IMG/VR virus record: IMGVR_UViG_3300049847_000163
Location: 1 to 40,754 of that record
DNA: 40,754 nucleotides
Direction: 5' to 3' (one strand)
Origin: a virus
This document shows positions 1,898 to 21,315 of the stretch, one piece after another (positions within the stretch are counted from its first letter, which is position 1; each line of letters begins with the position of its first letter). Under the pieces are notes generated by a model. It was not told where the DNA came from. It did no database searches and was given only the letters and a program-made list of their open reading frames with translations. The translations under genes were made by a program, and so were the position numbers.

Positions 1898-2524
1898 TTA
1901 AAAACCACCATCTGCGCCGCCATCAGTACCATCAGTACCATCAGTACCATCAGTACCGCCATCGCTACCGCCATCGCTACCGCCTTGGCCTGCTGCATTA
2001 CCGCCATCGTTACCATTGACCCCATCACCCTGAGTAGCTGTACCGTCAGCAGGGCTGCTATCTGCTGGGGCTGCTTCTGGAGCATCTAATGGAGCTAAGT
2101 TAGTTACGTTGGAGACATCAGGTGTTGCTACAGGTGTCGTCTCTGCTACTTGGGGTGCCTGGGGGTTATTATTGTTATTGGCTGTATTAGCTACTGCATT
2201 AGAGACTGCATGGCCTATCACATTAGCGACTGGCCCAGGTACACCAATAGCACTCAGTCCTATGCTTACAGCAGCCCCTGCGACGCCTGAAACACCTGCA
2301 ACACCACTGGTATTCCCAGATGCCCCAGCAGCCGCTGCTCCGGTGCTACCATCAGTGCCATCAGTACCCCCACCTGAAGTCCCAAAACTACCCCCTACAG
2401 CAGTGCTGTTAAGCGGTGTCGATCCAAATAAAGAAGAGGCATTAAATAGATCGTTAGCGCCAGATTGACGTCGCATTCTCCGCCGTGGGTAGTATTGGTA
2501 TTCATCACCAAAAAGATCGCTCAT
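1898..2524 (-). CDS. Low-complexity protein with Gly-Thr-Asp repeats, 208 aa
   Basis: The ATG at 2524 lies one base after the stop of the preceding 67-aa gene, so translation is probably coupled. An open frame continues upstream but only through the neighbour. The N-terminus is basic and aromatic (YYPRRRMRRQ). The middle is Gly/Ala/Val-rich and could form a glycine-zipper-like or membrane-active segment (about residues 65-110). Residues about 120-180 are Ala/Pro/Asp-rich. The C-terminus is a run of Gly-Thr-Asp and Gly-Ser-Asp triplets encoded by a 9-bp minisatellite. No enzymatic motif is seen. Position suggests a minor virion or ejected protein; the Asp-rich tail could bind divalent cations, but that is speculation. 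Confidence 0.5.
   Translation of the reverse strand: MSDLFGDEYQYYPRRRMRRQSGANDLFNASSLFGSTPLNSTAVGGSFGTSGGGTDGTDGSTGAAAAGASGNTSGVAGVSGVAGAAVSIGLSAIGVPGPVANVIGHAVSNAVANTANNNNNPQAPQVAETTPVATPDVSNVTNLAPLDAPEAAPADSSPADGTATQGDGVNGNDGGNAAGQGGSDGGSDGGTDGTDGTDGTDGGADGGF
1920..1955. repeat. 9-bp tandem repeat, 4 copies (CCATCAGTA)
   Basis: Four consecutive copies of CCATCAGTA (plus strand) encode the Gly-Thr-Asp repeats at the C-terminus of the 208-aa gene. They are followed by diverged 9-bp units (CCATCGCTA). Two further CCATCAGTR units occur near 2349 in the same gene. Confidence 0.85.
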
Positions 2525-2525
2525 A

Positions 2526-2729
2526 TCAGTTCGATCCCAGTTGTCGTGCTTGTGCGTCTGTGAGTATACCAGCAGTAACCAGCATATCAAGCGTGACGTA
2601 GCGGTCTTTGTACGTACCTCGTACCCCCTGAGCGACTTCTACATGCTCCTTGACTGCACCAAGAAACGACTGCATAGCCTGACTCTCATTCTGAGGTATC
2701 TGCCCCAGTCCAGGTTTATTGTTTATCAC
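2526..2729 (-). CDS. Small virion-operon protein, 67 aa
   Basis: Unrecognised. It starts on an ATG that overlaps the TGA of the upstream 559-aa gene (ATGA overlap) and ends one base before the next ATG, so it is locked into the operon by translational coupling. The sequence is soluble, with one amphipathic helix (about residues 17-33) and a C-terminal stretch (VTLDMLVTAGILTDAQARQL) that resembles a short helical docking segment. No motif assigns a function. Confidence 0.55.
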   Translation of the reverse strand: MINNKPGLGQIPQNESQAMQSFLGAVKEHVEVAQGVRGTYKDRYVTLDMLVTAGILTDAQARQLGSN

Positions 2730-4405
2730 TGTGGTTTCCCCTCAGTTAGATCATCGATACTTGTAGCCATGTGTATTTCGTATACATCTGGCTTACCCTC
2801 TACTTGCATAAACCAACGCTCCGTATCCCGGTAGAACCTTGGGAGTCTAAACGGCTCACTCGAAGTTACCTCACGAGAAAACTTAAGTTGGTCATTCACA
2901 AATAGAGAGAATATAAGTGGTAGCACAGTACCACCTTCTTGCCTATACTCGCCAGTAATCTTTACTGCTGCAAAGCTCGTGATATAAGGCATCACGAAAG
3001 CTTTACTCCGCCAGCGGTAAACTAACCTCTCAGAGCTAGCTTCCCACTCGTACAGTACGTTATCGCGGTTCTTCTGTCCGACGAAGAAGAAGTCTGTATC
3101 AGGATTTGCGTAGGCCGCCGTCGCGTAGAAGTTTAACGTCGTCAGTTTATCTCGTTGTTCTACGCCTGTAGCTCTATCGTTATAATCAAAGACGAACCCG
3201 GCCCCTTGGGGGTCAACAAGGCTGTAATCTTGCCCATGATCGGTTAGGTAGAAACCAACATAGCGCCCATCATGGATTACTCCATGCAATGTTGTCGGGT
3301 TAAATCTCTGCCACTCATCACGACTTAGTACATCACGAGTAATAACCTGTAGCCCACCGTAACCCACCCATACGAGGCCGTCAGCGCTTGCGTAAAGTAC
3401 CCCTCGATCACCGGATACCATTGAGCGCTTAGACGCACAGGGATAGGGATCAGGTAACTTTTCGATAGACAAATTCTTTGGGCTTACGCCGCTAACAAGA
3501 TAGGTGAATCCTGTGGTAGCTACAACTATTGTACTACCATATATACCTAAAGCTACTATAGGATACTCAAAAACCTTCGTATATTCAGGAGGATATGCGT
3601 GGGGCTGATATGCTTCTGATATATACAACTGATTCCCAGCAAACCCTGCTAAAAATCCTCCTGGGTGTGAAATAAGCCCCGTCATATTATGGGGTGGGGG
3701 GTACCACTGCTGTGAAGGTAGGCGTTCTAGTAGATCAATATCCAAGAAGGTATCTACATAGGATGTCTGAGAAACCAAAATCATATCAACGAATAAAATC
3801 TCTGTTGTAGATGTACCAGTCTCATATCGGTAAATTCGGATATGAGTGACATTCTCCGAAGTAGGCGCAGCAAACCCTGAAATAGTCGCTGCTTGCCCAT
3901 CCATCATACCTACAACTACAGACGGATTTGACGGTACGCCTTCTTCAGCTAGGGCTGTGACAAAGGTGTACAGGTATGCACGCTGCTTCACCGTCCCCGT
4001 ACCACCTGTACCTAGTGCTACTATGGGTGGTGTGGTAGGTGCGTCTACACCCAATGTATAAGCTTGTGAAGGGTAAGGAAGCTGTGTTGTAGCTCGGGCT
4101 AAAGTAGTAACCTTCGGCCTACCATCTCCCGTATAGTATATGCGCCCTTCAGTGTCTCCTGGAAGAAAGCTGCGTTGGACGTTCACGTCTGCATTCCAAG
4201 ATAGCCAATAACCGTTCAAATTATATATTGTTTCGATGAACCCACGACGTAGCTTCGTAGGATCAACGAGCGGGGCGCGTAAAGCCCGTATCTCTCCAGA
4301 CCACAACTTGCAATTCTCCGCAACTACAGCAGCATTCGGAGGCAGTAATCTCTGCGAGATACGCGGCGCGATCCCGCCAAAATTCTGTATGCGTAGGCTT
4401 GGCAT
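2726..4405 (-). CDS. Conserved phage structural protein, 559 aa
   Basis: The N-terminus (NFGGIAPRISQRLLPPNAA, then VAENCKLWSGEIRAL) is a signature I recognise from large virion proteins of many podovirus-like phages, usually annotated only as structural. The rest is rich in beta strands and aromatic residues with regularly spaced Gly-Tyr and Trp, consistent with a propeller-like tail or nozzle component. The C-terminal region ends in a beta-rich segment (YRDTERWFMQVEGKPDVYEI). It starts just after the TAG of the third oxygenase gene. Its exact place in the particle is not shown by the sequence; tail/nozzle is inference from size and gene order. Confidence 0.7.
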   Translation of the reverse strand: MPSLRIQNFGGIAPRISQRLLPPNAAVVAENCKLWSGEIRALRAPLVDPTKLRRGFIETIYNLNGYWLSWNADVNVQRSFLPGDTEGRIYYTGDGRPKVTTLARATTQLPYPSQAYTLGVDAPTTPPIVALGTGGTGTVKQRAYLYTFVTALAEEGVPSNPSVVVGMMDGQAATISGFAAPTSENVTHIRIYRYETGTSTTEILFVDMILVSQTSYVDTFLDIDLLERLPSQQWYPPPHNMTGLISHPGGFLAGFAGNQLYISEAYQPHAYPPEYTKVFEYPIVALGIYGSTIVVATTGFTYLVSGVSPKNLSIEKLPDPYPCASKRSMVSGDRGVLYASADGLVWVGYGGLQVITRDVLSRDEWQRFNPTTLHGVIHDGRYVGFYLTDHGQDYSLVDPQGAGFVFDYNDRATGVEQRDKLTTLNFYATAAYANPDTDFFFVGQKNRDNVLYEWEASSERLVYRWRSKAFVMPYITSFAAVKITGEYRQEGGTVLPLIFSLFVNDQLKFSREVTSSEPFRLPRFYRDTERWFMQVEGKPDVYEIHMATSIDDLTEGKPQ

Positions 4406-4407
4406 AG

Positions 4408-5028
4408 CTACCCCGAGAAGTTATTTGTTGCTGGGTTGATAAGTCCCCATATTAGCTGCATCGAGTTCCTACGTCCATTCGTAATTGGTAGTACTTGATG
4501 CGGGAAGTTCTTGTTTGAGGGGAACATGACAAACTCCCCAACTTCAGGCTTAATTTTCAACCCTTGCCTGGGAAACTCTATCTCTCCCCCACTATAGTCG
4601 TTATTGAGGTACAGCACTGTAGTGATACCCCGTTGAAAATCTACTCCTACCATAGTGCCTGTAGTCGTCTGTGCGTGGTCATCCGTATGCAATTTAATCC
4701 CCCGCCCAACAGGGTAACTGAAAAGCTCTGTATTAGTTCTAAAGGGTGTAGCAGTCGTATCGAAATTATCTCTCGCATATTGATATGCTATATCATTAAG
4801 CCGCGCAGCTAGAGGTACAGCAAAATCTGGGAATACAACAGATACAGATTGCCTTGCTTCATAATCAACTACAGCTTTCCCATCTAAACCATAAGCTCCG
4901 TGTTCTGCGTACTTCTTTGTGACCCAACACTCATCGATATAATTATTGAATAGAGCCGCGTCGAAAGCCAACTTACCACGTAGTAATGTGGTTCCTTCTT
5001 TCATCACGCTTTCAGCATAGCTAATCAT
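4408..5028 (-). CDS. 2-oxoglutarate/Fe(II)-dependent oxygenase (P4H-like), copy 3
   Basis: A 206-aa protein of the prolyl-4-hydroxylase-like 2OG-Fe(II) oxygenase fold. The iron ligands are visible as HTD in KLHTDDH and the distal His in FPHQV. The 2-oxoglutarate-binding Arg is in GRR. Between them lies the usual YLN...GGEIEFP strand pair and the KPEVGEFVMFPS strand. The ATG at 5028 overlaps the upstream TGA (ATGA) and is preferred over a TTG five codons upstream. The family hydroxylates protein side chains (commonly proline), nucleic acids or small molecules, using O2 and 2-oxoglutarate. The substrate is unknown. It is the last of three paralogous genes embedded in the virion operon. Confidence 0.85.
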   Translation of the reverse strand: MISYAESVMKEGTTLLRGKLAFDAALFNNYIDECWVTKKYAEHGAYGLDGKAVVDYEARQSVSVVFPDFAVPLAARLNDIAYQYARDNFDTTATPFRTNTELFSYPVGRGIKLHTDDHAQTTTGTMVGVDFQRGITTVLYLNNDYSGGEIEFPRQGLKIKPEVGEFVMFPSNKNFPHQVLPITNGRRNSMQLIWGLINPATNNFSG

Positions 5029-5639
5029 AAATCGAATCTCCAAGTTGTTTGTAGCAACATGCGTTGCCCTGAGACTATTGGTAGGACACCATGCTTGTAC
5101 TTGTAATGTGCAGGGAACATAACCAACATACCATACTTAGGCTCTATTCGTAGGTCGGGATTTGGGAAGTACAACTCTCCCCCCTCGAAATCAGTTCCTT
5201 GCGTGCTTAGATATAACAAAGCCACAAGTTGATTCGCCCAATTAAACTGTACTGTACCAACCCCATAGTCCATATCTGCGGGGTCTTGGTCATCACAATG
5301 GATTGGGCATCCTACTCCCTCTCCATATAGCAATACAACACTAGACTGCCGTGTAGGAGTTCTCCCCGTGTAATTATAGAAACTCTCTGCTGCGGTTACT
5401 TCTTGCTGAATCCGTTGTTCTAGTAAAGGCTTAGCAGCTAACTCCACATCATAGCTACGCCTACCACGTTCTCTACCGTTGTCCGTGCTGTAAGTACGTG
5501 ATGGCTTTTTAGTTTCCTCCCATGTCTGCTGTATTGCACTCCTATAATCGTCTTCTAGTGTAAGCATGCGTATACGAATACCATCCTTGCCATCAGGGGT
5601 AGATACGTTAAACAGTGGATTAGGCAGCGGGCGTATCAT
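5025..5639 (-). CDS. 2-oxoglutarate/Fe(II)-dependent oxygenase (P4H-like), copy 2
   Basis: A 204-aa paralogue of its two neighbours. The iron-binding HxD is HCD (in CPIHCDDQ), the distal His is in YKYKHGVLP, and the 2-oxoglutarate Arg is in SGQR. The strand GGELYFP matches GGAIEFP and GGEIEFP in the other copies. I start it at the ATG at 5639, giving [10 protein letters not shown], because copy 1 begins similarly ([13 protein letters not shown]). A TTG at 5684 would add 15 residues with no support. It overlaps copy 1 by 20 bases and copy 3 by 4 bases, so all three are translated as one unit. All catalytic residues are present, so it is probably active. Confidence 0.85.
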   Translation of the reverse strand: MIRPLPNPLFNVSTPDGKDGIRIRMLTLEDDYRSAIQQTWEETKKPSRTYSTDNGRERGRRSYDVELAAKPLLEQRIQQEVTAAESFYNYTGRTPTRQSSVVLLYGEGVGCPIHCDDQDPADMDYGVGTVQFNWANQLVALLYLSTQGTDFEGGELYFPNPDLRIEPKYGMLVMFPAHYKYKHGVLPIVSGQRMLLQTTWRFDL

Positions 5640-6246
5640 AAAAATAATAATGTCTGACAAAAGCAAATCTACCGCCAATAACAACTGGTGTTACTTGGTG
5701 GGGAAACTTGTAGTTAGATGGGTATACTAGCATCGTACCGCTTTTAGGTATGATCGATAACTGCTGCTTCGGAAACTCTATAGCTCCTCCTTCCAGATCA
5801 GGACTAACAACATAGAGTATCGCTGCTAACTGGTTGAGCAAGTGCATCACATACTTAGTCTTCCCCTGTTTTTCTGGTGCTTTATGTTGGTCATCTGTAT
5901 GAAGCCCTGAATAAGCGCCAACCCCATAGAATAAAAACTGTTCCCGGCTCTTGTACGGGAACTTACCCTCGCCCCACTGCGTAACAACTTGCTGCATCTC
6001 AGCGTCTAACGTACTAAAAATACTGACTACTAGGCTATCTCTAGTTTGTATATCTACGGAAGTTCTAAGCCGCTTACTCTCGTCCCCGCTTGCTGCATTG
6101 GGATCGAATGACAAAGCCAGCGCTGCTCCCTCTGGTAGAAAGCGCTGCGCTAGCTCTGCGTATAGATTAGCTGGGAGTGTTAGCTGCTTGTGTACAACTT
6201 CACCTTGCACCTCGTAGACTGGGTTTGGGATAGCTTGTGCCAGCAT
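5620..6246 (-). CDS. 2-oxoglutarate/Fe(II)-dependent oxygenase (P4H-like), copy 1
   Basis: A 208-aa 2OG-Fe(II) oxygenase with HTD in GLHTDDQH, the strand GGAIEFPKQ, distal His in YKFPHQVTP and Arg in IGGRF. The open frame extends upstream through the repeat tail of the preceding gene and there encodes a Cys-Asp-Ser run, but that is a frame shadow. The real start is the ATG at 6246, two bases after the TAA of the 307-aa adhesin-like gene. No clear ribosome site precedes it, so ribosomes finishing the adhesin probably reinitiate here and couple the two products. The adjacent (Val-Thr-Pro)8 tail is a plausible but untested substrate. Confidence 0.85.
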
Positions 6247-6248
6247 GA

Positions 6249-7172
6249 TTACATAGCAGCGCCAATAGCTCCACCTACGGGTGCTACAAGTCCCACAGGA
6301 GTCACAGGAGTCACAGGAGTCACAGGAGTCACAGGAGTCACAGGAGTCACAGGAGTCACAGGAGTCACAGCAGCAACAGGGGCTACAGGAGCACCACAAG
6401 ATGTATTTGCTTGCAACGCAGTACACAATGCTACCCATTGTGCCGGAGTTGCATTGTTGATGAACGCGGTAATCAGTGCATTCATATCAAGATGCAACGG
6501 ATCAGCTATAGTCCCTGTGCCTAAAATCGGTGCTAGTGCATGTGCACGGGCAACAAGCGTAGGAAATTCTGCGGGCACCCCAGGGCCAGGATTAGGTAGT
6601 GTTTGGTTCTCTACCGCGAGCAGTGAAGTAGAATCAATCCGCAGTGCAATACGGTTATTTGTATCGACATAGATAGGATCAGTTGTGCCCGGTAGTGCCC
6701 CTACAGTGAACCACTGTGTACCATTCCAATGATAGAGTATGTTAGGTACTGTTGCTGTATTGACGACATACTCAACGCAACCGCTAGGCGCTGTGTTAGG
6801 TGGAGTAGTTACTAACGCGGTATTACTAGGAGAGCATCTACCAGCAAGCGCCTTAATAATCTCATCGCCAATATACTCCTTGAACTGCTGCACATTCCAT
6901 GATAACTTTACACATGACCCTGCTGGGAAAGCCCTAGCGATCGTATTATCCTGTGCTCGTTGTACTTGTATGTTGTCATTACCTAAAGGGGTAGTAGATG
7001 TGTACTTAACAACTTCGCTGCCTACACGATCTTCGATTGTTAGATAGCAGTAGTCGCCCAACGTAAATTCAAATAGTACACCTTCACCTACACTTAAAGG
7101 TAGGATAGTGTCCCCCGGTGCTATTGGAGCACGCAAGGTAGCGGTAAGAAAATTAACTAGTCGTAGTGCCAT
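6249..7172 (-). CDS. Adhesin/fibre-like virion protein with (VTP)8 tail, 307 aa
   Basis: The N-terminus (residues 1 to about 115) aligns without gaps over the first 48 residues to that of the 413-aa protein and shares the later segment FPAGSC...VQQFKEYI, so both carry one virion-attachment or baseplate-like module. The middle contains segments typical of fibre proteins ([28 protein letters not shown]). The C-terminus is a Pro/Thr/Val-rich tail with eight Val-Thr-Pro repeats, then [14 protein letters not shown]. The tail is probably extended. It overlaps the 59-aa gene by 20 bases and is followed two bases later by an oxygenase gene. Receptor-binding or fibre function is inferred from domain style and location. 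Confidence 0.65.
6295..6366. repeat. 9-bp minisatellite, 8 perfect copies (ACAGGAGTC)
   Basis: Eight identical head-to-tail copies of ACAGGAGTC (plus strand), with degenerate partial units on both sides, encode the Val-Thr-Pro repeats of the 307-aa minus-strand gene. Identical third codon positions in every copy indicate recent expansion by slippage. The 9-bp unit keeps the frame, so copy number can vary without breaking the gene. Confidence 0.95.
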
Positions 7173-7332
7173 TTTGGTTCTCTTTTATCTGTTTCAATTC
7201 TGTCGCGATAAGAACGCTCTCTTGCGCAGCTTCTCTGCCTCGTGCTGCCCATAAACCTACTTGCGCCTCTGCAAGTTCAGTCCGTGTCTGCCATAGCTTC
7301 AATTCAAGCTCTAATTCTTTTTGCGTTTTCAT
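7153..7332 (-). CDS. Small coiled-coil protein between two adhesins, 59 aa
   Basis: The ATG at 7332 overlaps the TGA of the 413-aa gene (ATGA). The frame runs to a TAA at 7153, inside the next gene. The translation begins MKTQKELELELKLWQTRTEL and is almost wholly helical with heptad-like Leu/Ala spacing (about residues 5-50). It is charged, with no membrane segment. A gene of this type, a short coiled coil wedged between two related adhesins, also occurs at 15,390. A trimerisation partner or fibre chaperone is a reasonable guess, not shown. Confidence 0.6.
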   Translation of the reverse strand: MKTQKELELELKLWQTRTELAEAQVGLWAARGREAAQESVLIATELKQIKENQNGTTTS

Positions 7333-8570
7333 ACATTTACCATAAGTTGTATTTTATATATTGTACCGTTCACTTCAATTGGTAGATACTGTCCAGAGGC
7401 TGCCCCTGCTGTGGTTACAAGTAGGGCTGTTGTAGCGCTAGTATCATTGAATACCAACCCACCATTATCTACACGAAACCCAAAACGAGACTGGCCTTTC
7501 CATGTAAACCCCCACATACCAGTTGTATCATTATAGCTTGAGTTTAGTGCATCAATACTATTACCATTCCACTCTACTCCTAGCTTAGAGCGTAACTGTA
7601 TTAAAGCTTTAACACGTGGAATATCCGTGTCGGCTATATCACTGAAATCGATGCCAATAGCCTTAGTTATCCCTGTTTCATCAAGAGAACCTGCTCCAAA
7701 ATGTATCCCCCGCAACCATCCACAAAACTCACCTGCGGAACTACGGGGTTGCGATACAATAGCAAAGGCTGTAGACCGCTGGTTGTATTTATTCGCACCT
7801 ATTCCCGCTGGTGTTGCAGACACATTATCTGGACGGTCACGGAAGTAAGACATATACCCAATTTTTTCGTTGGGGTTATTAGAGTCCTGGCTATATACTG
7901 AAGCAGTTGCCCCGTATAAAGGAGCTAGTGCACCCGGCGCTGTCCATGCTTCACTGACGCTACCTATGATAGTACCTGTAGCTCCTACGTCTGCTCGTGC
8001 AGTAAACTTTGCGCCATAGAGAGACGCACCCCCTGAAGTACGTTTTACAGAAGCTAGAAAGCCATACTGAGATTTATCTATGGCTGTGGAATACCCGATC
8101 CATAGTCCCTTGTCTAACTGCAATAAATTATCCCCTGCTACAAGCGATGTATCCCATACAGCATCTTTGAATGCTACAGCACCGTTAAACTGATTACTCC
8201 CAACCCAAGTATTATTCCTACCTAGTAAAGTTGTGTCAATTAGAGGTTGTTGAACTGTGCACTCTTGAACCTTTTGGCATACAAAATCATCAAGGTACCT
8301 GCAAGTGATAGATACGCAAACTGAAGCCCCAGCAGGAAAGTTCTGGGTATCTCGGTAACGAGTGATAGCTAACTCACCGTCTACAATTCGTCCGCCATCA
8401 AAACGTACTTCTTCTTGTATACCGTTAGCCTCAATTATTAGGTATACGTAACTATCTACAGGTAGATTAAATTGCACTACATCTTCGAGTGCAATCTTCA
8501 TAGTTGTATCAGTATGCTGTAGAGGGCACCGTAGTATAGAGCAAGCTGCTATACATAGAACTTTTTTCAT
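7329..8570 (-). CDS. Adhesin/fibre-like virion protein, 413 aa
   Basis: The start MKKVLCIAACSILRC looks like a signal peptide but is more likely a virion module. It aligns residue for residue with the N-terminus of the 307-aa protein (shared L5, L13, R14, P16, D21-T22, then Y-x-Y-L-x-I-E). A ribosome site AAGGAA lies 5 bases upstream. Residues about 115-400 look like a tail-fibre or spike shaft and head: many Gly/Ser/Thr, SLYGAKFTARADVGATGT, and a C-terminal region ending in GQYLPIEVNGTIYKIQLMV, a style common in phage fibre ends. It is followed by ATGA-coupled small coiled-coil and second adhesin genes. Confidence 0.65.
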   Translation of the reverse strand: MKKVLCIAACSILRCPLQHTDTTMKIALEDVVQFNLPVDSYVYLIIEANGIQEEVRFDGGRIVDGELAITRYRDTQNFPAGASVCVSITCRYLDDFVCQKVQECTVQQPLIDTTLLGRNNTWVGSNQFNGAVAFKDAVWDTSLVAGDNLLQLDKGLWIGYSTAIDKSQYGFLASVKRTSGGASLYGAKFTARADVGATGTIIGSVSEAWTAPGALAPLYGATASVYSQDSNNPNEKIGYMSYFRDRPDNVSATPAGIGANKYNQRSTAFAIVSQPRSSAGEFCGWLRGIHFGAGSLDETGITKAIGIDFSDIADTDIPRVKALIQLRSKLGVEWNGNSIDALNSSYNDTTGMWGFTWKGQSRFGFRVDNGGLVFNDTSATTALLVTTAGAASGQYLPIEVNGTIYKIQLMVNV

Positions 8571-8582
8571 GTTTATTCCTTG

Positions 8583-9587
8583 CTAGATCGTCGAAGCAGC
8601 TAGGGCAAAGTATGGCCGCCACTGTACGCTTTGCCCCTCAATTGCAAAATCAAGTTGTATATTACCTAGCTTGATACCCTTATCCCATAGCTGAAGTTCG
8701 ATATTAGCAAAACCTAAAAAGAAGGCTGCTCGTACATAACCTATACCTATAGCTGGGTCATACTGTACGTTGTATAACGTAGAGTTTGTTCCTTGCTCTG
8801 TATACACATCTACGATTGTTACTTGATCTATCGGCGTGCCTAGTACCTTGAAAAAATATGTCCTGAAAGCCTCGAAAGGAACTTGCTGTATCCCACTATT
8901 ATTCACATCGAACGGGCCGACTTCACTGCTTATCGGCTCTGCCCAAGCTAGCGCTAATGGGGTAGCGGGGGGTAAAGGTACTGTGCAATCTCCCTGAACT
9001 ACTGGGGAACAACTTCCAGTAGTTACGCATGTATCTATAGTATCCGTAGCTATACACGGAACTACTCCGCATGAAGGATCAATAGCACCTAGAGGCCCTT
9101 TCCCTATAGCATCCTCACAACCAGGAGCACATGCCTTCTCGCGTTCAGTACGGCAGGCAACAACTACAGCCTCACACCTACGTATACGAAACTCTACTGT
9201 AAAACAATACTCATCGTTGATAAAAATATCACCTAGGTAATAGCCATACGGTTGGAGTAAGAAATCAGTATCCCAATAAAAACATACCTCGTTCTCGTTA
9301 TTGATTGAGAAAGCATCATAGGTCGCAATAATTACTTCGCGCCCTTTACGCAGCAGTTCAATCCGTACACAAGCACAACCAAACAATAGTTGTTGCGTTG
9401 GACTTAACAAACTTGTATTCATCTTGAACCAAGACTTTGCTACTGATGTGTCAATATCAATAATCCCACAACCGCTATACCTACGCTTTCGTGGTAAAGG
9501 GGCCGAGCGAGTAATACAACCACATAGCTGTGCTAAAGACTCCGGTGGTACAACTACTGGAAGTGGGGGAGTAATTGGAGTAGGCAT
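8583..9587 (-). CDS. Cysteine-rich virion-operon protein, 334 aa
   Basis: I do not recognise the family. The ATG overlaps the TAA of the upstream gene (TAATG), so it is tightly coupled. The protein has an unusually high number of Cys, most in residues 20-210, including CGC, CAC and a cluster ERKACAPGC...SCGVVPC. The segment 55-140 has aromatic beta-strand patterns (VCFYWDTDFLLQPYGYYLGD) and the C-terminal 110 residues are beta-rich without Cys. It lies between the connector-like and adhesin genes, so a tail or tail-adhesin adaptor is likely. The Cys may bind metal or form disulfides after release. Function is inference. Confidence 0.5.
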   Translation of the reverse strand: MPTPITPPLPVVVPPESLAQLCGCITRSAPLPRKRRYSGCGIIDIDTSVAKSWFKMNTSLLSPTQQLLFGCACVRIELLRKGREVIIATYDAFSINNENEVCFYWDTDFLLQPYGYYLGDIFINDEYCFTVEFRIRRCEAVVVACRTEREKACAPGCEDAIGKGPLGAIDPSCGVVPCIATDTIDTCVTTGSCSPVVQGDCTVPLPPATPLALAWAEPISSEVGPFDVNNSGIQQVPFEAFRTYFFKVLGTPIDQVTIVDVYTEQGTNSTLYNVQYDPAIGIGYVRAAFFLGFANIELQLWDKGIKLGNIQLDFAIEGQSVQWRPYFALAASTI

Positions 9588-11898: not shown

Positions 11899-12855
11899 TT
11901 ACTGGAAACGAACGTATGCCATCGCCAAGCCTTCGCTCTGAATGACTTTATGCCCATAGACAGTCATGCCTTGCATGTAAGTATCCCAGCTATCCTTGTC
12001 GTTATCGACAACACGGGTCTTCTCGATCTGGGCCGCAAACGCGGTAGCCCCACGCCAGCCTGCAATGATCTGGTAGCAATCAGTGCTAACTGCGGCATCG
12101 AACACCTTGCAAACATTATGTGAGATGTACACATCGAAACCAGCAATCTTCGCAGGAATTTTTCCATTGAGGACACCGTTAGACGCAATATCACAGCAAG
12201 CTCCAGCTAGTGCTGGGTTCTGCGTGATTTTTGGGCTGTTAAGCAGGTACGACTCTGCAATATCTGGTAGCACGATGAACAGGTCATTCATAGGAACACA
12301 CTGCTCTTTTAGAGTAGCGCGAATATATGTCATGACTTCCCATATGTTTGCAGAAGTGATAGACAACGGAGCGCCGACAGCACCCAAGTTGTATACACCA
12401 GACTTAACGCCTGCTTTTGCACCTTTATTACAAGGATGTGCATCAAGCGCCATCTTGCATAGAAGCTCTGCGTCGATCTCTTCTGTCATCTCGTAGGCCG
12501 CGGACTTCAGAAGTGACGACTCCCATTTAGACCAATTGCAGATTTGCTCAATATCAACTTGAGAAATCTTCACGGAGAACTCAAGCAACTGGTCGATAGT
12601 CATCGTCACAGGGCACGTATCAATCGTGTCATGTTTGATTGTGCCGTCCTTGACGTTGCGTCGTACTGTTACCTTTGGGGTACGGAAAAAAGTGATTTGG
12701 TCACCACACTTCTTCAGTTCACCCGTGTACTCAGTAGTTGTGATGTCACCCATGACTGCCGTGCAGTAAAACTGCTCGATCAAGTCCATCGAGAACATCG
12801 GAGGAATCAGGCTCCCACTGTATTGGGGGTAGCCGGATGCTGCTGGAATAGCCAT
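11899..12855 (-). CDS. Major capsid protein, 318 aa
   Basis: The 318-aa length, a strong AAGGAG ribosome site and location right after a coiled-coil scaffold candidate point to the coat protein. The N-terminus (SGSLIPPMFSMDLIEQFYC, then GDITTTEYTGELKKCGDQIT) and the segment RRNVKDGTIKHDTIDTCPVTM followed by LLEFSVKISQVDIEQI match a P22-coat-like/HK97-fold capsid group in which 'G..g.tI.i' and 'k....a..idd.d' strands surround the long spine helix. The last third (IAGFDVYISHNV...WRGATAFAAQIEKTRV...GMTVYGHKVI) is the typical closing part. It contains eleven Cys, unusual for a coat protein. Confidence 0.8.
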   Translation of the reverse strand: MAIPAASGYPQYSGSLIPPMFSMDLIEQFYCTAVMGDITTTEYTGELKKCGDQITFFRTPKVTVRRNVKDGTIKHDTIDTCPVTMTIDQLLEFSVKISQVDIEQICNWSKWESSLLKSAAYEMTEEIDAELLCKMALDAHPCNKGAKAGVKSGVYNLGAVGAPLSITSANIWEVMTYIRATLKEQCVPMNDLFIVLPDIAESYLLNSPKITQNPALAGACCDIASNGVLNGKIPAKIAGFDVYISHNVCKVFDAAVSTDCYQIIAGWRGATAFAAQIEKTRVVDNDKDSWDTYMQGMTVYGHKVIQSEGLAMAYVRFQ

Positions 12856-17706: not shown

Positions 17707-19818
17707 CTAAAAAGGGTTACTCGCAACAACTTGCCGCGCAAGCCCACTACGTCCATCAGGGATTGGTGTGGGTACTGTACCTTGCCCCAACTTTGGAGAT
17801 GCCGTAGCCATAGTACCTTTACCCTGTGGTGGTGGTATAGACCCATTACCTTGATCTGGAATGAATGGAAGCTGCCGTCTATTTTTACTCCCCATCTTTG
17901 GAGGCTTACCACCTGATGACTGGATCATAGCAGCAGCTTGGCCTACTCCTGCGGGTGTAGCTGTGACAGCGTTAGCCGCATCTTGCAACTGCGCGCGCTT
18001 CTCGGGGTCGGGAATAATTTTATCTACAGGCATTTCAAGCCCACGTAAGACTTCACGTAGCAGAACCGCTAGCCCTTCTTTAGGTACAACACCTGAAGCG
18101 GCATAGGGGGTGATAAGTTGTAGTGACTCCAAACGACGTTGGATCATCGCCTCGCGCATGATAATCCCCGTAGGGCCTCGCGCAACAACTTGGGCATCAA
18201 CTTTCAAGGACTCATCAGGATCGAAGAGCATATTGTAGTTGTACATCTCAGTGATGAAAGGCTCTAAGATGTCCCGTTCAATATGCCCAATAACCTTCTT
18301 GATTCCCTTCGATGCATTACCCATAAGCATCGCAAGCCCACCAACTGTTCGCCCTGCACCAGCTACTGCGGCATTACCATAGCTGTACGCTGGTATACCT
18401 GTTGCATCATCACATGCCTTGACCTCCATATTAATGACAGACGTAAGTTCAGGGGCTACTGAGTCAATCTTATGGAAGCGGTATACAGGGCTATTCGATC
18501 CTGTCAGGTCTGGCTCAACCAACTTAACTGATGCTGGTAGTATCTCTTCAGGGGCTTGCCCATCGGAAAGACGACTTTGATCTACCTCAGCAAATGGCCC
18601 TGATGATAGACCCATATTCCTTCGTAAAGCACGGTAGGCACTATTGATAATATCCTGATGGGGCTTCATCAACATAGGTGTACTACGTCCTACAAGCGAC
18701 CCAGGTATCTTCTCATAGCTGGTAACGTAGTACGGACGGACTCCGAGAGGGCTTGGATTTATCACTGCACGGATACAGAGATTGTCTACTACCCATACGT
18801 TCACATCGTAGTACTTATCAGGGTCATCTATCCCATGCATCCCCCATCCAGTTAACATACTGCCTTTTATGCTACCCCAATAGTCAAGTACATCTATTGT
18901 ATTTGCTGTCTGAAGAAGATGTGTATTCTGCTCTAATACTTCGCGTTGTGCACGCGTCTGTACCATTTCCTGATGCCCGAACTCGTAAAGTCCTAAAGCC
19001 ATGCGAATTTTCTCGCTATCGAAATTGGGTAAGTCTATGCAATCGTATAGTGCTTTCTGCTCCATCCGCATGACTTCAACTGTATATCCCTCATTAGGGG
19101 TAGTTGCCCACGGTGCCCAGTAGAAGTCAAAGGGGCTTACACGCTCGACAACTAATACGTTTTCTACCTTTACAATGGGTGTACTGCTTCCATTTTCCCA
19201 TCGTAGAACCTTCTTATTCCGAACGATAGGCCCCTTCAGCACTGCGTAGGGGTAGGTAATTAGATCGCTGCGGAATTCTGAGAAAGCCTTGGCAAAGTTC
19301 GCCTCATCCAACTGGTCTTCGATCTTCTGCGACATATTGTCCACTGCGGTCTGAGCAGCGGTGTGCATTAAATCCATCACAATATTTTTGAGGTCTACTG
19401 CTCTATCACGGATGTACTGATCAACCTTATCCGCAGGTGCGCCAAACTGAACAATCTCCTGCTTGATCTTCTGCACGATCATGTTCCGAACAAACTGTGG
19501 GACTTCAGGGATAGGCGTTGGAGCGAGTGTCCAAGGCCGCTCACGTGTTGATGCGAGAATGTCGTCTAACCAAGCCTCTCCTGCACGGCACTTGGTACTG
19601 GTGTAGTTTACGAATACTGCTACCGATCCGAATGAGGCTAACTCCTGTGGATCGTACTCACCCTTGCGCTGTCGCAAACACTGGATCAACAGATAGTCTG
19701 TATTCGTCCGTGCGGTCTTCGCAATTCTAAAATCATCCTGTACCCTAGCGCCAAGCTCACAAGCAACTGCGTCTTCGACAGCTTGCTCGTTCTGTGTGGT
19801 ATTGGTTGGTTTTGCCAT
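17707..19818 (-). CDS. Portal protein (P22-like size), 703 aa
   Basis: The 703-aa length, the position immediately after the large terminase and characteristic segments identify the portal. These include EFRSDLITYPYAVLKGPIVR, then WENGSSTPIVKVENV and SPFDFYWAPWATTP, a pattern shared by the long portals of podovirus-like phages, in which 'D...YP.a.LKGP' precedes the wing domain. A C-terminal helical part (residues about 480-600) is followed by a Gly/Pro/Gln-rich tail (about 625-703). Twelve copies would form the ring through which DNA enters and leaves. The ATG lies 27 bases after the terminase stop and no good ribosome site is visible. Confidence 0.85.
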   Translation of the reverse strand: MAKPTNTTQNEQAVEDAVACELGARVQDDFRIAKTARTNTDYLLIQCLRQRKGEYDPQELASFGSVAVFVNYTSTKCRAGEAWLDDILASTRERPWTLAPTPIPEVPQFVRNMIVQKIKQEIVQFGAPADKVDQYIRDRAVDLKNIVMDLMHTAAQTAVDNMSQKIEDQLDEANFAKAFSEFRSDLITYPYAVLKGPIVRNKKVLRWENGSSTPIVKVENVLVVERVSPFDFYWAPWATTPNEGYTVEVMRMEQKALYDCIDLPNFDSEKIRMALGLYEFGHQEMVQTRAQREVLEQNTHLLQTANTIDVLDYWGSIKGSMLTGWGMHGIDDPDKYYDVNVWVVDNLCIRAVINPSPLGVRPYYVTSYEKIPGSLVGRSTPMLMKPHQDIINSAYRALRRNMGLSSGPFAEVDQSRLSDGQAPEEILPASVKLVEPDLTGSNSPVYRFHKIDSVAPELTSVINMEVKACDDATGIPAYSYGNAAVAGAGRTVGGLAMLMGNASKGIKKVIGHIERDILEPFITEMYNYNMLFDPDESLKVDAQVVARGPTGIIMREAMIQRRLESLQLITPYAASGVVPKEGLAVLLREVLRGLEMPVDKIIPDPEKRAQLQDAANAVTATPAGVGQAAAMIQSSGGKPPKMGSKNRRQLPFIPDQGNGSIPPPQGKGTMATASPKLGQGTVPTPIPDGRSGLARQVVASNPF

Positions 19819-19827
19819 AGCCGTAAT

Positions 19828-19856
19828 TGTATACGACAGTTAGGCTTAAAAAGCAA
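19828..19856 (-). promoter_or_regulatory. Candidate leftward promoter before the portal gene
   Basis: On the minus strand TTGCTT (19856-19851), a 17-base spacer and TATACA (19833-19828) precede the portal ATG. The block TAACTGTCGTATAC (19842-19829) resembles AACTGTTGTATAC at the strong promoter near 24,950, with the same placement relative to the -10. The predicted transcript would start only a few bases before the ATG, so evidence is weak. Confidence 0.3.
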
Positions 19857-21315
19857 CCCCCGCACTTCCCCCTATCCGTACTGCCTCCCGCCGCCCTTGC
19901 GAAAGGATACCCAATGCGAGGTACTGCGCCGCGTCATGGGGGTGTGACGACTCATTCTTTTCTGGGTGGCTCTTCGCAAGCCCGTTGAGCTTCTTGTACC
20001 CATATCCCCCTAGAAACCCTTTACGGAGTTGTACACAGCTAGGGTTAAGCAGGAACCCATTACGCTTCATCAGGAACTTCTCGATGGCCTCCTTGCGCGG
20101 CAAGAACTCGTTGGTGTAGGTAGGCATGCACCGGATGTTTGCTGCTGCCATGAGCATGAACGGACTGCGCTTGTCAATATTGCTGCGCCCTCGCCCTGCG
20201 GGGTCGCCCCAACCTTGGAACGTTCGTACCCCAGAGAAGTGCTCTGTGATAAACGGTCTGTACCAGTCCTCCAGAAACTCCTCCAAGCTGACGCCTGATG
20301 GTTGGTTAGGCACCAACTCCTTGAGAATCACCAACTGCCCTGTACGCAGCACCTGACCAAAGACCATCGCGGGGTGTAGCCCAAAGTCTACCCCGATCAG
20401 TACAGGTAGGGATTTATCGACCTTGATCTCTTCTTGTGCAATGTGGTAGTCGTCGTCATACGTTTCTGCGTATACAGGTTGTCCAGTGACGGATACACCC
20501 CACTTGGCGCAGAAGTCTACCAATATCTGCGACCGCTTCATACCGGGCAGCTTCTTCAGGTAGTAGTCGTACCCACCTTGTAGGTTCTCGATGTTCTCTG
20601 CTTCGGGGTTAGGCACCCATATACGCTTGGCAGAGTCCTCGGGATCAGGCTCCTCAAGCAGTGCACCGGGTTGCAAGAATGTCTTCCACCCTTCACGCTT
20701 CTCTACCTGCAAGGCTTTGAACAGAGGGTGGTCTGTATCGACCATGTTGAAGTCCATGATGAGTCCTGACCATGAACATCCTGAGCCAGGAATTACTTGG
20801 TAGTTCTCATCACGTTCAATTTTCGGATACCGCCCCGTGCGTTGTAACCCCACACGAATAATCTCTGCATCGGAGAACTGTGCCTCGTTGATCCACAGCC
20901 CTGTCAACTCGAATGACCTGAGTTTCGCTTGGTCCTCCTCCCGGTCTAGCGCGAGGAAGATGATCTCGGACTCCACCCGTGTCCCATCGCCGATGTCTGG
21001 GATCGTTATCACTGATGTCGGGGGTGCCGTCATCTTGATTGGTCCTAGCTCGGGAGGTATCCAGTCGAGCCACGTTTTGATCGTCGTGTTCTTGAGTTCG
21101 TTGTAGGTATTACGCACAACCCCCCATCGCGTCCGCCGCACACCCCTGAATGCGTTCTGAGCCATTGCCCGCAGCAGTATCTCCATCACCATGCCGACGC
21201 TCTTGCCAGCCGCTACAGGCCCGCCTACGGCCCGTACCATGCTGTTGTCTTGGTGGAACCTCAAGAAGGTCGGGCTTGGGTTGTAGTTAACCTTGATGAT
21301 GTTGGTGTTGCTCAT
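19846..21315 (-). CDS. terL: Terminase large subunit (DNA packaging ATPase/nuclease)
   Basis: A 489-aa protein with both terminase activities visible. The ATPase has a Walker A GGPVAAGKSVG at 31-41 and a Walker B-like LTGLWINEAQ ending in Glu144/Gln146 at about 138-146. The RNase H-like nuclease has acidic residues in VLIGVDFGL (D310), GWGDPAGRG (D371) and SHPHDAAQY (D461). It threads DNA into the prohead through the portal, the next gene downstream. The family layout is the long single-chain type common in podovirus-like phages. Base composition is G+C-rich compared with much of the operon. Confidence 0.92.
   Translation of the reverse strand: MSNTNIIKVNYNPSPTFLRFHQDNSMVRAVGGPVAAGKSVGMVMEILLRAMAQNAFRGVRRTRWGVVRNTYNELKNTTIKTWLDWIPPELGPIKMTAPPTSVITIPDIGDGTRVESEIIFLALDREEDQAKLRSFELTGLWINEAQFSDAEIIRVGLQRTGRYPKIERDENYQVIPGSGCSWSGLIMDFNMVDTDHPLFKALQVEKREGWKTFLQPGALLEEPDPEDSAKRIWVPNPEAENIENLQGGYDYYLKKLPGMKRSQILVDFCAKWGVSVTGQPVYAETYDDDYHIAQEEIKVDKSLPVLIGVDFGLHPAMVFGQVLRTGQLVILKELVPNQPSGVSLEEFLEDWYRPFITEHFSGVRTFQGWGDPAGRGRSNIDKRSPFMLMAAANIRCMPTYTNEFLPRKEAIEKFLMKRNGFLLNPSCVQLRKGFLGGYGYKKLNGLAKSHPEKNESSHPHDAAQYLALGILSQGRREAVRIGGSAGVAF

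Follow-up and report, generated by a model that had tools for sequence, protein, structure and literature searches.

A (Val-Thr-Pro)8 tail-fibre-type gene beside three predicted 2OG-Fe(II) oxygenase genes in a phage virion operon, and the matching of fibre-tail composition to oxygenase subfamily in aquatic phages

The window, meaning the whole stretch of DNA analysed, comprises 40,754 bases of an IMG/VR virus record, and the minus strand of its left part carries a virion operon. The features of this operon are listed below.

19846-21315, minus strand: terminase
17707-19818, minus strand: portal-like protein
11899-12855, minus strand: major head protein (small structural proteins are also present in the operon)
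8583..9587, minus strand: P0006, 334 aa; its N-terminus (PITPPLPVVVPP) is Pro-rich, 8 of 30 residues being Pro
7329..8501, minus strand: P0005, 390 aa, upstream of P0002, with collinear homologues in contigs L002 and L003
7153..7332, minus strand: 59-aa coiled-coil-like protein, judged from its translation, between two fibre-type genes, with a 20-nt overlap with the P0002 start
6249..7172, minus strand: P0002, tail-fibre-type protein, 307 aa, residues 1-100 matching tail-fibre families
6297..6368, minus strand: (Val-Thr-Pro)8 array, eight identical GTGACTCCT units (Tandem Repeats Finder, codon listing and shuffles)
5620..6246, minus strand: ox1 (P0001), predicted 2OG-Fe(II) oxygenase, 208 aa (PF13640, 37.1 bits)
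5025..5639, minus strand: ox2 (P0003), predicted 2OG-Fe(II) oxygenase, 204 aa (PF13640, 38.7 bits)
4408..5028, minus strand: ox3 (P0004), predicted 2OG-Fe(II) oxygenase, 206 aa (PF13640, 46.8 bits; PHROG_61, E 2.8e-23)
2726..4405, minus strand: P0007, Bcep22/BcepMigl-type virion protein (PHROG_511 "internal virion protein", E 3.9e-146)

The genes are ordered P0006, P0005, the 59-aa protein, P0002, ox1-3 and P0007, the last starting 2 nt after ox3. P0005 showed no family match in Pfam or PHROG searches, and P0007 matched 168 phage records, the best with less than 60% identity. At the DNA level the region matched no phage record, and at the protein level neither ox1 alone nor P0007 alone gave a match in the viral contigs. 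In the Bcep22-like podovirus BcepMigl, gp61-gp63 show the same fibre N-terminal domain followed by a P0007-type protein, in the same order as in the window. In BcepMigl, however, neither oxygenases nor a Pro repeat lie between the fibre and the gp63 homologue, which is where ox1-3 are inserted in the window.

Residues 1-100 of P0002 matched PHROG_6427 (E 2.2e-14) and the tail fiber families PHROG_8469 (1.9e-8) and PHROG_30299 (2.6e-6), and the tail fibres of the Burkholderia phages BcepMigl and DC1 are homologous to it. P0002 therefore carries the N-terminal domain of known tail-fibre families, in agreement with a first-pass annotation of this DNA that had called it an adhesin. The same annotation had described a 307-aa protein with eight identical Val-Thr-Pro units, and the reading frame bears this out, with the same nine bases in 8/8 units. 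In 5,000 codon shuffles of P0002 the longest VTP run was 2, so the array is not a product of chance. Tandem Repeats Finder gave it a score of 154, the maximum in the window, with 100% matches over 6294-6370. Since third-base identity is perfect across the units, the array is most simply read as a 9-bp minisatellite of recent slippage expansion. The C-terminal tail reaches 9 Pro per 30 residues, and the residues flanking the array also contain proline. The repeat is Val-Thr-Pro and not (Gly-X-Y)n, which rules out a collagen triple helix on sequence and removes the collagen analogy previously drawn for this tail. A second perfect 9-bp tandem array, of 4.2 copies, lies at window positions 1920-1957 and corresponds to a (GTD)n tail in a 230-aa ORF (1898-2590), indicating that low-complexity tails made by slippage are a repeated feature of this genome.

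The two nearest relatives of P0002, with 45-47% identity over the N-terminal part, are found on contigs L002 and L003. At the position of the VTP array they carry 8 and 9 units, respectively, of a 15-bp, Pro-free GVNTV repeat; the position of the repeat is conserved and its motif is different. Both contigs end just past the tail repeat, inside the fibre gene, so that the genes downstream of their fibres are not visible. A capsid alignment search returned the same short contigs and one further short contig, and capsid or fibre alignment scans of genome contigs gave no match. In these contigs, which come from one metagenome, the GVNTV repeat is followed by (GV)n (L002:5740-5860 and L003:5740-5880), and the length of the fibre tail is hypervariable.

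As a recent DNA expansion, the VTP array may owe its proline content to accident. It could then be a mere slippage-prone minisatellite, a length-variable linker functionally unconnected to the oxygenases, as the eight identical 9-mers, the other 9-bp array and the different repeat at the orthologous place in L002 and L003 would allow. We consider this very unlikely, because the flanks of the array contain proline as well and because, in the other phages described below, repeats that differ widely in DNA sequence come to encode Pro-dense peptides solely in places followed by PF13640-type oxygenases.

The start of ox1 at 6246 lies two bases past the P0002 stop (TAA tc ATG); the start at 6438 given in the ORF list is merely an upstream in-frame ATG. 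Within the 25 bases upstream of the ox1 ATG (gagctattggcgctgctatgtaatc), no sequence resembling a Shine-Dalgarno site stands at the customary spacing, and the earlier description of a first oxygenase two bases after the stop without a ribosome site of its own was thus accurate. The interval given in that description spans P0002 and ox1. Additionally, ox1 and ox2 overlap by 20 nt and ox2 and ox3 by 4 nt. Together with the position of ox1 and its missing Shine-Dalgarno site, these overlaps make translational coupling likely.

All three proteins exceed the curated PF13640 cut-off of 27 bits, are 28-30% identical to one another and keep the HxD...H...R residues (H116, D118, H183 and R193 in ox1). 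Across 65 homologues the H/D/H residues are invariant, and the basic 2OG-binding residue is K in 41 and R in 24. Among solved sequences, the profile of ox1-3 was nearest to prolyl 3-hydroxylase, PKHD/PiuC hydroxylases and bacterial prolyl 4-hydroxylases. An AF2 model of ox1 (pLDDT 78) had only prolyl hydroxylases among its best 50 Foldseek matches (TM 0.5-0.65), a set in which PHD2 counts heavily because it is over-represented in the PDB. These neighbors include C-P4H-II, PHD2, PBCV-1 vCPH and an algal P4H with a (Ser-Pro)5 peptide. The model shares the DSBH fold and the HxD...H triad with Bacillus anthracis P4H, Pseudomonas EF-Tu prolyl hydroxylase, C-P4H and PHD2 (Foldseek probability 1.00), but with only 15-19% identity and TM 0.5-0.65. 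The 2OG-binding residue is Lys in collagen P4Hs and Arg in PHD2-type enzymes. Because this residue is Arg in ox1-3, we do not file them as collagen-type P4Hs. On the basis of sequence and model, ox1-3 are predicted prolyl-hydroxylase-like 2OG-Fe(II) oxygenases with intact metal and 2OG residues, which extends to three genes what had been proposed for the first.

We defined a cassette pattern in which a fibre with a 30-residue stretch of 9 or more Pro is followed directly downstream, on the same strand, by a PF13640-type oxygenase; the window shows this pattern, with 9 Pro in 30 residues and ox1 2 nt downstream. Gene calling in the survey contigs was mechanical and took the longest ORFs that did not overlap, recognition of oxygenases relied on a profile built here, and each scan covered the 80 best loci, from metagenome contigs of which many are fragmentary. 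The scan with the oxygenase alignment found at least 80 viral loci, many with tandem oxygenase arrays, and the gene just upstream of these arrays was often a Pro-dense fibre (PFFPPFFP, PPHFPPHF, FAPPGFF, APVAPAPV, SPAAPVAP or VVPPVTPP). Among the best 80 loci, a Pro-dense gene lay no more than three genes upstream of 30/58 array starts and downstream of 0/58, against a background of 69/693. The search of other phages that had been proposed for Pro-repeat fibres beside 2OG oxygenases therefore found the pairing, upstream of the same enzyme class. An fn3-domain fibre family supplies nearly all of these Pro-dense genes; outside it a Pro-dense gene was upstream of 3/31 arrays, equal to background, and this is the main limit of the survey.

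Several loci pair oxygenases with collagen-like or Pro-rich fibres. In the marine virus AG-345-F15 (L009) a collagen-like fibre lies 43 nt before the oxygenase, in L231, the only P0007-type locus with an oxygenase among the best 80, it lies just upstream, and L022, L023 and L051 have further Pro-rich or collagen-like fibres beside oxygenases. Two cultured Synechococcus phages, S-CAM7 and ACG-2014f, have a collagen-like fibre, then a glycosyltransferase and then a 2OG oxygenase in one cluster, which suggests hydroxylation and then glycosylation. In S-CAM7, gp014 and gp015 are collagen-like. The clusters are located as follows.

S-CAM7, NC_031927, 12914-20410 (L259): fibre-glycosyltransferase-oxygenase cluster
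ACG-2014f, NC_047713, 13861-19337 (L256): fibre-glycosyltransferase-oxygenase cluster

Other loci lack such a partner. L061, L066, L074 and L088 carry oxygenase pairs with no Pro-rich neighbor, the cultured phage S-SCSM1 has oxygenase arrays next to fibres in which no 30-residue stretch exceeds 6 Pro and others beside replication genes, and in S-WAM1 an oxygenase lies beside DNA polymerase and recombination genes. The enzyme class is thus functionally mixed. The first-pass annotation had counted oxygenases without any Pro-rich partner in homologous phages against its proposal; such oxygenases do occur in other phages (S-SCSM1, L061, L066, L074 and L088), and the contigs of the nearest relatives end inside the fibre gene.

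Cyanophage oxygenases (PHROG_61; annotated as "PiuC", "ferrochelatase" or "prolyl 4-hydroxylase") belong to the same family as ox1-3, and some lie beside the collagen-like fibres of S-CAM7 and ACG-2014f; the roles proposed for them in the literature concern host metabolism or DNA repair. A cyanophage genome with up to 24 copies of 2OG-Fe(II) oxygenases has been described, the functions of which were not investigated (PMC9602691), and roles in nitrogen/2OG balance or DNA repair have been proposed for phage 2OG oxygenases (PMC3037559, PMC9146016). By analogy with these three cyanophage papers, ox1-3 could serve auxiliary or host-directed purposes, acting in the hydroxylation of host proteins, in nitrogen/2OG balance or in the repair of DNA, and module shuffling would then have placed them next to the fibre. 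The S-WAM1 oxygenase beside replication genes, the scattered oxygenases of S-SCSM1 and the lack of enrichment for Pro-dense neighbors among non-fn3 arrays agree with such a role. Nevertheless, ox1-3 belong to the late virion operon, where their overlapping frames are flanked by the genes for a fibre and a virion protein, and the placement of Pro-dense genes in the best 80 loci is directional, so that we regard a host-directed role as unlikely here.

The association was then examined in the reverse direction, starting from fibres. Using the N-terminal domain of the fn3 fibre family (A5/A6, from T4-like-looking IMG/VR contigs) as query, we considered the 92 distinct members, among the matches listed, with at least 2.5 kb of downstream sequence; the Pro-density threshold had been set after the first scan and before this test. 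A PF13640-type oxygenase started within 2.5 kb downstream of 67/67 Pro-dense and 6/25 Pro-poor members (Fisher p = 9e-18; since the rows are related, this value is not taken as a probability). An oxygenase was among the next two genes in 64/67 Pro-dense versus 1/25 Pro-poor members, and two or more lay within 3 kb in 63/67 versus 0/25. Moving the threshold anywhere within 8-11 Pro per 30 residues left the split unchanged. Typical Pro-dense tail motifs are PFFPPFFP, PPHF and FAPPGF, and Pro-poor ones FGFSPFG, APFGAFGA, YNFYNYSN and SFVPYSFTP. On a maximum-likelihood tree the Pro-dense label changes 3 times, at least 2 of these being forced by well-supported branches, and the oxygenases change along with it; this amounts to only 2-3 phylogenetically independent contrasts, with which a sign test is unable to reach significance. 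Inside the Pro-dense clade (support 100/100), L294 and L327 have Pro-sparser repeats and neither oxygenase family, which reads as a clear co-loss of Pro-dense tail and oxygenase. Cultured phage records contain no member of the fn3 fibre family.

Some fn3 fibres carry a Hint/intein-looking self-processing domain after the repeat, ending in HN (L039:3464-4783, L020:2438-3757, L095:5001-6320 and L137:3122-4330). This domain call is based on sequence appearance, as Pfam at E 0.01 found only fn3 in these proteins.

A description of the Pro-poor members as fibres without oxygenases was dropped, since 20/25 precede a second oxygenase-like family that the PF13640-type profile had missed. This family, here termed HKFFE after its motif (HKFFE...WHDHGG...GHPH...PRITIAYD), occurs in 1-3 copies behind these 20/25 Pro-poor fibres versus 2/67 Pro-dense ones. 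Examples are given below.

L127:5857-6519: HKFFE family member
L137:4379-5673: HKFFE family member
L139:3795-5086: HKFFE family member
L155:6727-7380: HKFFE family member

The family matches no Pfam family and at best PHROG_2696 (unknown function). Its HxH...H...R residues are conserved, and the best matches of an AF2 model (pLDDT 87) are 2OG-Fe(II) oxygenases including 3bvc, 2rg4 and ThoJ, so the family is predicted to have a 2OG-oxygenase-like fold. Profile-profile comparison found no link between the two oxygenase families, which are connected by fold alone. As fibre type tracks oxygenase subfamily, we argue that both families act on the fibre, the PF13640 type where the tail is Pro-dense.

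Within a virion-directed role, ox1-3 might act on another fibre residue (Asn, Asp or His) or on another virion protein, and not on the VTP prolines. Three divergent paralogues for one repeat suggest several substrates, the second oxygenase-like family accompanies Pro-poor F/G/Y/N repeats in the fn3 fibre family, and P0006 carries its own Pro-rich N-terminus, making it a possible second substrate. PF13640-type enzymes, however, specifically follow Pro-dense repeats, and prolyl hydroxylases are the nearest folds to the ox1 model, which leaves modification elsewhere an improbable alternative.

The best single explanation of the locus, to which we assign about an even chance, is that at least one of ox1-3 hydroxylates prolines of the P0002 fibre, and this estimate is carried mainly by the comparative pattern. 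P0002 would be the short tail fibre of a podovirus-type phage, with a length-variable, Pro-rich tandem repeat as its C-terminus. ox1, and perhaps ox2 and ox3, would be translated from the same message directly after it and would hydroxylate the VTP prolines, perhaps also the P0006 N-terminus, before or during assembly. The fibre could thereby gain a stiffer stalk of polyproline-II-like type, or its surface in contact with the host could be altered. Our inference covers the identity of the modified residue as proline, the choice of the VTP tail as substrate and the effect that the modification would have.

Virus-encoded prolyl hydroxylases have a precedent in PBCV-1, with its prolyl 4-hydroxylase and its Pro-repeat proteins. 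The structure of this enzyme (PDB 5c5t) is among the top folds for ox1, although its sequence match to the ox1-3 profile is weak (E 0.026). PBCV-1 is a eukaryotic algal virus, whereas the window holds a phage tail-fibre operon with three paralogues. The PBCV-1 enzyme is not known to be part of a coupled fibre-enzyme pair. Hydroxyproline in chlorella virus proteins has been reported, according to the citation of Eriksson 1999 in PMC9301287, and with this precedent the maturation proposed for the window is not, in the strict sense, the new type that had been suggested. The viral use of prolyl hydroxylase "remains cryptic", and collagen can form part of tail fibres (PMC9301287). In the open-licence PMC literature we found no paper proposing dedicated prolyl hydroxylation of phage fibres.

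The finding of wider reach is that, in aquatic phages, the composition of the fibre tail goes with the oxygenase subfamily; in these phages 2OG-Fe(II) oxygenases rank with the most frequent genes that lack an assigned role. Tentatively, and as somewhat less than an even prospect, we propose that aquatic phages mature their fibres with dedicated oxygenases matched to a fast-changing low-complexity tail chemistry, combining Pro-dense or collagen-like tails with prolyl-hydroxylase-like arrays and Pro-poor F/G/Y/N tails with the HKFFE family, (VTP)8 and ox1-3 being a small podovirus version. The matched pattern would point to a specific role, post-translational fibre hydroxylation, bearing on fibre stiffness, host recognition and annotation. 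If true, part of the phage 2OG oxygenases now listed as auxiliary metabolic genes would have a function in fibre maturation.

Finally, two observations concern the arrays themselves. Twelve PF13640-type oxygenase ORFs lie within 12.7 kb at L017:2-12701, with a few other genes between them. PHROG_7084/DUF6065 proteins are interspersed in oxygenase arrays (L020:4488-5219, L020:7723-8442 and L143:2187-2939) and also occur after fibres without oxygenases.
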